A DNA stretch of 64,000 bases, taken from an uncultured Bryobacterales bacterium. Lineage in GTDB: Bacteria; Acidobacteriota; Terriglobia; Bryobacterales; UBA6623. The notes under the pieces were generated by a model, which worked only from the letters and a program-made list of their open reading frames with translations, was not told where the DNA came from and did not search any database. Shown here piece by piece: positions 26,072-32,142 of the stretch. A program made the translations under genes and the position numbers. The stretch is taken from positions 1,564,435-1,628,434 of the forward strand of contig OY282420.1 in the NCBI GenBank assembly GCA_958295955.1, in the 5' to 3' direction. Positions within the stretch are counted from its first letter, which is position 1; each line of letters starts with the position of its first letter.

Positions 26072-26470
26072 GGCGGGCAGAGAACCCTGAAGCCCGTTGC
26101 TGCGTAGTCAAGATTCAAGGCGCCCATGAATCTCCGACTCGGTTCTCTTGCGTGCAAGTCGCTTAAGCTTTCCGTCTGCGCCGCGCTCTTGGTTGCGGCC
26201 GGCGGGGCGCAGCCCGCGTCCGACTGGACGATTGACACGGCCGCGGGAACCGGATTGAGCGAGGAAAGCGGGGGCGGGCTCGGCGGAGACGGCGGCCCGG
26301 CGGTCGAGGCGCGGCTAAGATACCCCTTTGACGTGGCGGTGGACGAAACGGGCAGCCTCTACATTGTCGATACCTGGAATCACCGTATTCGCAAGGTCGA
26401 CTCTGCGGGGATCGTGACCACGGTCGCGGGAAGCGGGACAACCGGGGAAAGCGGCGGCGGGTTCAGCGGG
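26072..26470 (+). repeat. Direct repeat, copy 1 (NHL gene start and upstream region)
   Basis: These 399 bases recur at 30889-31287 with about six mismatches (roughly 98% identity by eye), offset 4,817 bases. The repeat covers 54 bases before the ATG and the first ~115 codons of the NHL-repeat protein. Identity stops abruptly on both sides, which suggests a recent duplication or gene conversion. Confidence 0.9.
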
Positions 26471-26596
26471 AATGGCGTCCCAGCAGCCCAAGCGCAGCGA
26501 AGACTCCCCACTGGCACCGGACGGAGCCAGCAACCTCTATATTGCCGATCGCAATTTCCTAGTTTTAAGGTCTTGACGAGTAGCCAGAATCCGTGA
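26126..26596 (+). pseudogene. Truncated duplicate of NHL-repeat protein gene
   Basis: The first ~115 codons are nearly identical to the intact NHL gene at 30943. They include the signal peptide (CAALLVAAGGAQPA) and the first repeat (GGPAVEARLRYPFDVAVD, IVDTWNHRIRKVD). After base 26470 the sequence diverges, loses frame and ends at 26596. A short NHL-like remnant (ASNLYIADRNF) can be read in another frame around 26525-26560, so an older, larger gene has decayed. The 156-residue product would contain at most one and a half repeats and is unlikely to fold as a propeller. Confidence 0.7.
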
Positions 26597-26635
26597 GACA
26601 AGGCTTGCCGGGGGGAATTACATGCTTGACTTGAC

Positions 26636-26843
26636 TTGACTTCCCTCGCTCCCAAGACAGATACTTATCTCCGCGAGCATTTCTCGGGAATCCGTGAGTC
26701 GGGTTACCCGTTAAATACAAGAGCCTCATAACCGGCAAAGGGTAGCTCCCGGAGCCGAGGCGAATAGGCGGGGACCTCCTCTTTCCGAGAGATGTTCGTA
26801 ATGGCCCGACGCTCTTGTCGGGCCTTGGAAAGAGGAGGAAACC
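26636..26843 (+). promoter_or_regulatory. Promoter plus ~170-nt structured leader that sequesters the ribosome-binding site
   Basis: A TTGAC unit repeats three times at 26626-26641; the last forms TTGACT (26636-26641), 18 bases from GATACT (26660-26665). The predicted transcript would carry a leader of about 170 bases. It contains CGGGTTACCCG (26700-26710), a possible GCCTC/GAGGC stem (26723-26727 with 26757-26761) enclosing GGG-TAGCT-CCC, and then a strong hairpin. In that hairpin CCTCCTCTTTCC (26775-26786) pairs perfectly with GGAAAGAGGAGG (26827-26838), with an inner 8-bp stem (26803-26810 with 26817-26824). The right arm is the Shine-Dalgarno sequence of the gene at 26844, five bases from its ATG. 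This looks like a translational switch. I could not match the upstream part to a known riboswitch class. Confidence 0.65.
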
Positions 26844-27146
26844 ATGACATTTCAATTCAAAACCGCTACGGCGGTAGCCGGAATCAGCGCCGCCCTGCTG
26901 GCCGGTTGGTTGATCGGAGGAGGCTGGAACAGCGTCATTGCGCAAACAAGACCGCCATCCCCCAGATCGAGAACGCCGGTTGCCGTAACTAGAGCGCCGG
27001 CGACGGCCAACTGTTTCGAGATTCCCTTCGATGTTCGATTGAACGGCGGGCCGGCGTTGCTGAACAAATGCACCGGCGACACTTGGAGATTCGACAGTGG
27101 CGGGAGCGGCAGCGCCGGAGAATGGGTCCCCGCCGCGCGGGACTAG
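26844..27146 (+). CDS. Small exported or membrane-anchored protein of unknown function
   Basis: 100 residues. An N-terminal hydrophobic segment (TAVAGISAALLAGWLIGGGW) is followed by a short linker rich in Pro/Arg/Thr and a ~50-residue domain with two cysteines (NCFEIPFDVRLN and NKCTGDTW). The domain looks like a small beta structure that could form one disulfide. A perfect AGGAGG lies five bases before the ATG but is paired in a 12-bp stem of the leader. I do not recognise the family. A possible inverted-repeat element starts just after the stop. Confidence 0.65.
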   Translation: MTFQFKTATAVAGISAALLAGWLIGGGWNSVIAQTRPPSPRSRTPVAVTRAPATANCFEIPFDVRLNGGPALLNKCTGDTWRFDSGGSGSAGEWVPAARD

Positions 27147-27149
27147 AAC

Positions 27150-27271
27150 CTGTCTCAAAATTAAAAACCCTGAACTGGAAGCCAATCGACTATAAGAGCA
27201 ACCCTTTTATTTTCAACACGTTCGATTTTCGCTTCGTAGCTCGAATGTCGCTGAATATGATTTTGAGATAG
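27150..27271. repeat. MITE-like element with imperfect 12-bp terminal inverted repeats
   Basis: CTGTCTCAAAAT at 27150-27161 and ATTTTGAGATAG at 27260-27271 are inverted repeats with one mismatch, bounding a ~122-base AT-rich segment with no gene. CTGTCTCAAAAT-like ends recall IS5-type insertion sequences, so this may be a miniature or remnant element. No clear target duplication was found. Confidence 0.35.
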
Positions 27272-27375
27272 ATTGCAAATAACCTTGCGGTAAGTCATCG
27301 AGAGCAAGACCGGCCTGAGCGTCGAGCGGACCGCGGAATGACTCAACCGGCATCGTCAAATCGCCCTTTACTCGC

Positions 27376-30639: not shown

Positions 30640-30942
30640 GGCCGCGGCACCGAGCGCAAGCTCGCCCGGCCGCCTGGAGTTGCGCGCCGGCGCGAAGCTG
30701 CGCTTCGACGGTTTCCGCGAAGGATTGGGCGGCGCATGAGTCGTCGCCGGCGCCCTGCAGCGGCTCGCGCCGGAGGGCTACGCCACGCTGGTCGAGGCCG
30801 CCGCAGGCGCCTGAAAAATCGCAAATATTCCGGGGGCGGACGGCGTTTCGTTTTATGTGAAATTTCGTTGCATTTTATTTTTTGGGGAGGCGGGCAGAGA
30901 ACCCTGAAGCCCGTTGCTGCGTAGTCAAGATTCAAGGCGCCC
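30640..30942. other. Intergenic region with a decayed coding remnant and repeat copy 2 start
   Basis: About 303 bases with no intact gene. From about 30659 one frame reads GRLELRAGAKLRFDGFREG, a stop, then VVAGALQRLAPEGYATLVEAAAGA and another stop, with the amino-acid and GC pattern of real coding sequence. It looks like a relic of an unidentified gene. From 30830 the sequence turns AT-rich (poly-T patches), then the NHL direct repeat begins at 30889. Confidence 0.4.
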
Positions 30943-31287
30943 ATGAATCTCCGACTCGGTTCTCTTGCATGCAAGCTGCTTAAGCTTTCCTTCTGCGCCG
31001 CGCTCTTGGTTGCGGCCGGCGGGGCGCAGCCCGCGTCCGACTGGACAATTGACACGGCCGCGGGAACCGGATTGAGCGAGGAAAGCGGGGGCGGGCTCGG
31101 CGGAGACGGCGGCCCGGCGGTCGAGGCGCGGCTAAGATACCCCTTTGACGTGGCGGTGGACGAAACGGGCAGCCTCTACATTGTCGATACCTGGAATCAC
31201 CGTATTCGCAAGGTCGACTCTGCGGGGATCGTGACCACGGTTGCGGGAAGCGGGACAACCGGGGAAAGCGGCGGCGGGTTCAGCGGG
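30889..31287 (+). repeat. Direct repeat, copy 2 (intact NHL gene)
   Basis: Near-identical partner of 26072-26470. In this copy the reading frame continues into the full NHL protein, so copy 1 appears to be the truncated duplicate. Confidence 0.9.
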
Positions 31288-32142
31288 GACGGCGGCCCGG
31301 CGGTCGAGGCGCAGCTACGCTTCCCCGGCGGCGCGGCGTTGGACGGGTCAGGCAGCCTCTACATTGTCGATACCTGGAATCACCGTATTCGCAAGGTCGA
31401 TTCTGCGGGGATCGTGACCACAATTGCGGGAAGCGGGACGACCGGGGAAGGCGGAGGCGGGTTCGGCGGGGATGGCGGACCCGCGGTCGAGGCGCGGCTA
31501 AGATACCCCTATGGCGTGACGGTGGACGAAACGGGCAACCTCTACATTGCCGATACCTGGAATCACCGCATTCGCAAGGTCGACTCTGCGGGGATCGTGA
31601 CCACAATTGCGGGAAGCGGGACGGAAGGGTACGGCGGGGACGGCGGACCGGCAGTTCGGGCGCAGCTAAGCCATCCTCAAGGCGTGGCGTTGGACGGGTC
31701 CGGCAACCTCTACATTGCCGATGCCTGGAATCACCGCATTCGCAAGGTTGACTCTGCGGGGATCGTAACCACGATTGCAGGGGGCGGGACGCCCGGGGGC
31801 GGCAGAGGAAGATTCGGCAGGGACAGCGGCTTGGCGGTGCGGGCGCGGCTAAAATATCCCCAAGGCATGGCTCTGGACGCAGCGGGCAACCTCTACTTCG
31901 CCGATATCGGCAACCATCGCATTCGCAAGGTCGATGCATCGGGAATCATGCGCACAATCGCAGGAACCGGAGGAGCGTACGGGGGATTCGGCGGGGACGG
32001 CGGACCGGCGCTCCAAGCGATGCTGTTCAGCCCCCGAGGCATGGCGGCGGACAAAGCGGGCAACCTCTACATTGCCGATATCGGCAACCACCGCATCCGC
32101 CGCTTGACGCCGCCTCCCGGGAACGTTCCCCTGATTTTTTGA
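30943..32142 (+). CDS. Exported NHL-repeat beta-propeller protein
   Basis: 399 residues. A signal peptide ending near AAGGAQPA is followed by six NHL repeats of about 56 residues. Each has a glycine-rich loop (GxGGDGGPAV-ARL), a beta strand (YPxGVAVDxxGNLYIADxWNHRIRKVDSAGIVTTIAGSG broken over positions) and high DNA-level similarity, so the array expanded by tandem duplication. It would form a six-bladed extracytoplasmic propeller for binding proteins, glycans or small molecules. The last repeat ends in RIRRLTPPPGNVPLIF. Solibacter-like genomes carry many such proteins of unknown target. The first 115 codons are duplicated at 26126. Confidence 0.85.
   Translation: MNLRLGSLACKLLKLSFCAALLVAAGGAQPASDWTIDTAAGTGLSEESGGGLGGDGGPAVEARLRYPFDVAVDETGSLYIVDTWNHRIRKVDSAGIVTTVAGSGTTGESGGGFSGDGGPAVEAQLRFPGGAALDGSGSLYIVDTWNHRIRKVDSAGIVTTIAGSGTTGEGGGGFGGDGGPAVEARLRYPYGVTVDETGNLYIADTWNHRIRKVDSAGIVTTIAGSGTEGYGGDGGPAVRAQLSHPQGVALDGSGNLYIADAWNHRIRKVDSAGIVTTIAGGGTPGGGRGRFGRDSGLAVRARLKYPQGMALDAAGNLYFADIGNHRIRKVDASGIMRTIAGTGGAYGGFGGDGGPALQAMLFSPRGMAADKAGNLYIADIGNHRIRRLTPPPGNVPLIF

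Follow-up and report, generated by a model that had tools for sequence, protein, structure and literature searches.

The 5' leader of a small exported-protein gene in an uncultured Bryobacterales bacterium belongs to a multi-copy family of structured RNAs that is absent from Rfam 15. Judging from its sequence and that of its relatives, this leader is probably a cis-acting bistable translational switch from a new family of RNAs with sRNA-Xcc1 as a relative. A search of the window, that is, the whole 64,000-nucleotide stretch of DNA analysed, returned no Rfam family at gathering score, in keeping with the first-pass annotation, which had recognized no known riboswitch class here; matches to a Flavivirus frameshift element and to snoU89 were rejected as chance. 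This structured leader family was not found in the databases or literature searched.

In the window, the leader starts at about position 26672 and runs to an ATG at 26844, the first codon of a gene for a 100-aa exported protein without Pfam family (26844-27146; all features lie on the forward strand). The anti-Shine-Dalgarno (anti-SD) sequence CCTCCTCTTTCC (26775-26786) is the 5' arm of a hairpin whose 3' arm, GGAAAGAGGAGG (26827-26838), includes the Shine-Dalgarno (SD) sequence; the stem has 12 perfect base pairs, or 14 counting inner G-U and A-U pairs. Nested within it, GGCCCGAC (26803-26810) pairs over 8 bp with the anti-pseudoknot sequence GTCGGGCC (26817-26824). Both stems and the ATG had been reported in the first-pass annotation and lie where it placed them. 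The leader, described there as folded-looking, indeed folds better than all 200 dinucleotide-preserving shuffles, whether taken over 26636-26870 (z -3.6) or over 26725-26850 (z -4.1). The annotation had the putative repressed (OFF) hairpin right and overlooked a second folded state made of P1, a pseudoknot and a core; its two stems are the window's version of a family-wide alternative hairpin.

This second (putative ON) fold combines, throughout the family, a variable P1 stem of 15-20 bp, a 9-bp pseudoknot and a conserved core with the words AAUACAA, GGGUAGCUCCC and GAAUA. P1 of the window pairs GCGAGCATTTCTCGGGAA (26673-26690) with TTTCCGAGAGATGTTCGT (26782-26799), and since positions 26782-26786 are common to P1 and the anti-SD helix, the two cannot both form fully. 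In the family pseudoknot, GUCGGGNNN inside P1 pairs with NNNCCCGRC just outside P1, followed by NCCA; the window has GTCGGGTTA (26698-26706) and TGGCCCGAC (26802-26810), paired at nine of nine positions and followed by GCTC. The core then comprises P2 (CCCGTT, 26707-26712, with GGCGGG, 26767-26772), assigned by family covariation analysis with two-sided changes at 6/6 pairs; a conserved internal loop common to sRNA-Xcc1, AAATACAAGA (26713-26722); P3 (GCCTC, 26723-26727, with GAGGC, 26757-26761, the latter arm from the family covariation analysis), whose first two pairs rest on covariation and the others on sequence; P4 (GGC/GCC), a 3x3 internal loop and the P5 hairpin GGG-TAGCT-CCC (26740-26750), together spanning 26734-26756; and the conserved loop GAATA (26762-26766), placed from the aligned core.

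Transcription appears to start at P1. A promoter with -35 box TTGACT (26636-26641), an 18-nt spacer and -10 box GATACT (26660-26665) ends 7 nt upstream of P1, in a region where 0.3 promoter-like sites are expected. All three tandem TTGAC boxes noted at first reading are present (starting at 26626, 26631 and 26636), the third being the only one with a matching -10 box and the first two redundant. Across the family, a -10 box is found at most 28 nt upstream of P1 in 58/86 loci, against 25% expected from shuffles, and where a TANNNT box exists it mostly ends 5-7 nt before P1, so that the predicted transcript would begin with this stem.

A DNA search of 100 relatives recovered the leader in ten genomes, its own among them; all ten are from the same taxonomic family, although the downstream protein is barely conserved. 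From the aligned core we built a covariance model, R1, and a strict pattern; the latter, run against the genomes of about 85,000 species, gave 86 matching stretches, and the core pattern had no match in the viral contigs scanned. Nearly every fetched locus matches R1 over the full length of the core, scoring about 50-90 bits. R1 detects 2-9 copies each in 14 of the 18 genomes of the taxonomic family (own genome counted, with three copies), a single weak match among 43 genomes from elsewhere in the order, and 1-8 copies each in 35 genomes reached through the pattern. The latter belong to many phyla and groups, among them Gemmatimonadota, Alpha- and Gammaproteobacteria, Latescibacterota, Binatia, Nitrospirota, Nitrospinae and Chloroflexi. 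Outside the window's taxonomic family, carriers are metagenome-assembled genomes with mostly sponge-metagenome-style names, whose codes (RHO, COS, IRC, CAR, APA, CO) are consistent with the sponge species in PMC8163846; going by these record names, most carriers would have sponges as hosts.

Covariation supports each part of the ON fold. P1 differs in sequence in nearly every locus and its pairing is always kept, with a mean helix score of 40.7 versus 22.1 when partners are swapped. The pseudoknot forms nine of nine pairs in 69/87 loci, and at its three outermost positions 245 of 261 cells are paired, versus 204 (maximum 218) with shuffled partners. In the core helices, 96.6% of cells are paired, two-sided changes occur at 11 of 14 pairs, and 125 cells are compensatory versus 29 after shuffling, figures that, like the preceding ones, are not probabilities of independent events since the shuffles leave relatedness in. 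P2, P3 and P4 covary, and P5 with its UAGCU loop barely varies. Since the pattern prescribed AAUACAA, GGGUAGCUCCC and GAAUA, loci found through it give a biased picture of how well these words are conserved; the bias does not extend to the covariation of P1, of the pseudoknot and of P2-P4, nor to the SD complementarity described below. Homologous leaders devoid of covariation had been named at the outset as grounds for abandoning a regulatory reading; P1, the pseudoknot and the core helices all display it.

The alternative OFF pairing also recurs across loci. Locus by locus, the segment between the pseudoknot 3' arm and the start codon (assigned by rule, not by a gene finder) is complementary to the P1 3' arm and the pseudoknot 3' arm. 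Upstream and downstream halves hybridize at -14.7 kcal/mol versus -6.9 once the downstream half is shuffled (p 1e-12), the expected pairs between the P1 3' arm and the downstream segment number 12.2 versus 9.2 in swapped combinations (p 6e-6), and the pseudoknot 3' arm is paired downstream at 0.80 versus 0.50. Complementarity to the SD region exceeds that of swapped pairs, with the window ranking highest. The OFF fold lowers SD accessibility by more than 0.2 in 24 loci, with the opposite effect in 4; about a third of loci show clear occlusion and others show it weakly or not at all, so that some members may work differently. This locus-to-locus difference is the weakest point of the switch reading. 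The two folds and their covariation, like the promoter and the gene class, are read from the sequence, and they agree with the translational ON/OFF layout proposed in the first-pass annotation.

We infer the direction of control, the action in cis and any trigger as follows. In the ON state, P1, the 9-bp pseudoknot and the core would be formed, the P1 3' arm being held by its 5' arm and the SD left free. In the OFF state, the P1 3' arm would pair with a segment containing or abutting the SD, and the pseudoknot 3' arm with a downstream copy of its partner, which in the window would give the 12-bp stem with the 8-bp stem inside. Rough energies for the window are -75.1 kcal/mol for OFF and -56.5 for ON, plus 13 kcal/mol for the pseudoknot duplex before any penalty; as the OFF fold is more stable without help, the ON fold would need kinetic or external support. 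It could form first, during transcription, and might then be kept or released by a small molecule, by a protein, or through processing of the RNase P type at the tRNA-acceptor-like helix and its NCCA. As in translational riboswitches, a conserved, aptamer-like pseudoknotted core is combined with a strand-exchange expression platform that carries an anti-SD and whose states are mutually exclusive; unlike them, the family precedes genes for unrelated exported proteins that form no metabolic pathway.

Among 62 downstream proteins, 51 have an export-type or lipoprotein N-terminus, versus 137/626 (22%) control ORFs from the same loci (p 3e-21). Most have no Pfam family; the others include LRR with Ig-like domains and M66 peptidase, Big_2, collagen with trypsin, CsgG (twice), an OMP beta-barrel, an inverse autotransporter, BACON and CARDB. 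A conserved downstream protein was rejected as the cause of leader conservation, because the protein has few homologues and the RNA occurs upstream of unrelated genes.

The nearest known RNA is sRNA-Xcc1 (RF02221), which scores 23.1 bits in the window and 28.2 bits in locus L152 for a gathering cut-off of 53; at cut-off it was found in 0 of 61 relatives' genomes, and a search of 12 homologous loci (35 kb, E 5) gave no match. In shorter searches, two family members match sRNA-Xcc1 in the same register, and conversely the four best matches of R1 in 12 kb of plasmid DNA are four true sRNA-Xcc1 elements. Both RNAs have a GUCGGG-type 9-bp helix that ends in NCCA-like letters and encloses an AAUACAA/GAAUA internal loop with P2 on one side and P3 on the other; in both, an anti-SD lies after P2 and before the 3' arm of the 9-bp helix, at a short distance upstream of a gene. 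The present family differs in its outer P1 and its P4/P5: as sRNA-Xcc1 has no outer P1, its helix is not a pseudoknot, and a 3-bp hairpin stands where our family has P3-P4-P5 with UAGCU. The scores below cut-off, taken with the shared register, loop and anti-SD, make the family a larger, pseudoknotted relative of sRNA-Xcc1 and not a member under the Rfam criterion. Two compact core variants without P4/P5, L135 (G000:C1:3739760-3739960, upstream of an exported-protein gene) and L044:707-757, have a form intermediate between the two.

Downstream genes also differ, being phage antirepressors (Bro-N, KilA-N, Rha) for sRNA-Xcc1 and exported proteins here. True sRNA-Xcc1 elements lie 31-58 nt upstream of antirepressor, Bro-N, KilA-N or Rha genes, and their loop pairs with the SD region in 9/9 cases with a sound start, over 6-11 bp. 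Such elements, with a loop complementary to the SD and before antirepressor-type genes (L155, L156, L157, L189 and L191-L194), are likely C4-like control leaders. In Xanthomonas, sRNA-Xcc1 has also been described in integron cassettes, upstream of symE (PMC12444791). Although classified as a trans-acting sRNA, it may instead be a translational control leader encoded in cis, as suggested by the anti-SD that it carries ahead of antirepressor genes.

This kinship, and C4 by analogy, point to the main rival of the cis-acting bistable switch, a processed antisense leader. RNase P, guided by the acceptor-like 9-bp helix and NCCA, would cut at the G of GUCGGG, and the excised RNA would pair with the SD region of its own mRNA, silencing it in cis or trans. 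C4 of phages P1 and P7 (RF01695) is the described precedent, an antisense leader of antirepressor genes that is processed by RNase P and whose a' and b' loops bind the target (PMC5320573); like C4, our leader is complementary at two places to the region where translation of the following gene starts. sRNA-Xcc1 has anti-SD complementarity and a position before antirepressor genes, where C4 acts; Northern blotting and end mapping showed it to be a discrete RNA of 88 nt (PMC2996969). In our family, about 90% of loci have NCC after the 9-bp helix, NCCA itself being suggestive only, and the window has GCTC. The anti-SD of the family is, however, the 3' arm of a 15-20-bp stem and a poor antisense surface, a cut before GUCGGG would leave the P1 5' arm annealed, the fold is not that of C4, and neither the window nor L152 has a C4 match in Rfam up to E 10. 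We regard processing as a serious alternative, albeit a less probable one.

A protein could also set the switch, if the core bound a conserved factor that fixes one fold and thereby coordinates a surface-protein regulon. The nearly invariant unpaired core letters and the presence of several copies in a genome, upstream of exported genes that are unrelated, are what such a system would produce, but the invariant loops fit a small ligand equally well, the family spans many phyla and no candidate protein was identified, which makes this explanation improbable. The thermosensor of the first-pass annotation, in which the anti-SD hairpin would melt with temperature, draws on the hidden SD only; in the folding model the window SD stays paired up to 60 C, and the conserved core, pseudoknot and alternative P1 would be superfluous, so we hold it very unlikely. 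Variable copy positions and duplicated segments near the window leader might evoke a chance or mobile-element palindrome without regulatory role, a notion that is hardly credible given the covariation in P1, the pseudoknot and P2-P4, the promoter spacing, the exported-gene association and the lack of a near-identical copy in the leader's own genome, which also rules out a genomic repeat or MITE.

If the cis-acting switch is correct, a single regulatory RNA ties together many mostly uncharacterized exported proteins of apparently sponge-dwelling bacteria, and the element offers a testable handle on surface control in these putative symbionts. More speculatively, it is possible that a riboswitch-like class shared by sponge symbionts across phyla senses a host or community compound to control secreted and surface proteins (LRR, Ig, collagen-like, autotransporter) as one regulon, having evolved from or with phage sRNA-Xcc1 leaders.

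Segments 26072-26498 and 30889-31315 of the window are duplicates, 97% identical, and the leader is preceded by an ORF (26126-26596) that repeats the NHL-repeat gene at 30943-32142 in truncated form. Directly after the regulated gene, a 15-nt inverted repeat (87%; 27147-27161 and 27260-27274, about 100 nt apart) may be the remnant of a small mobile element.
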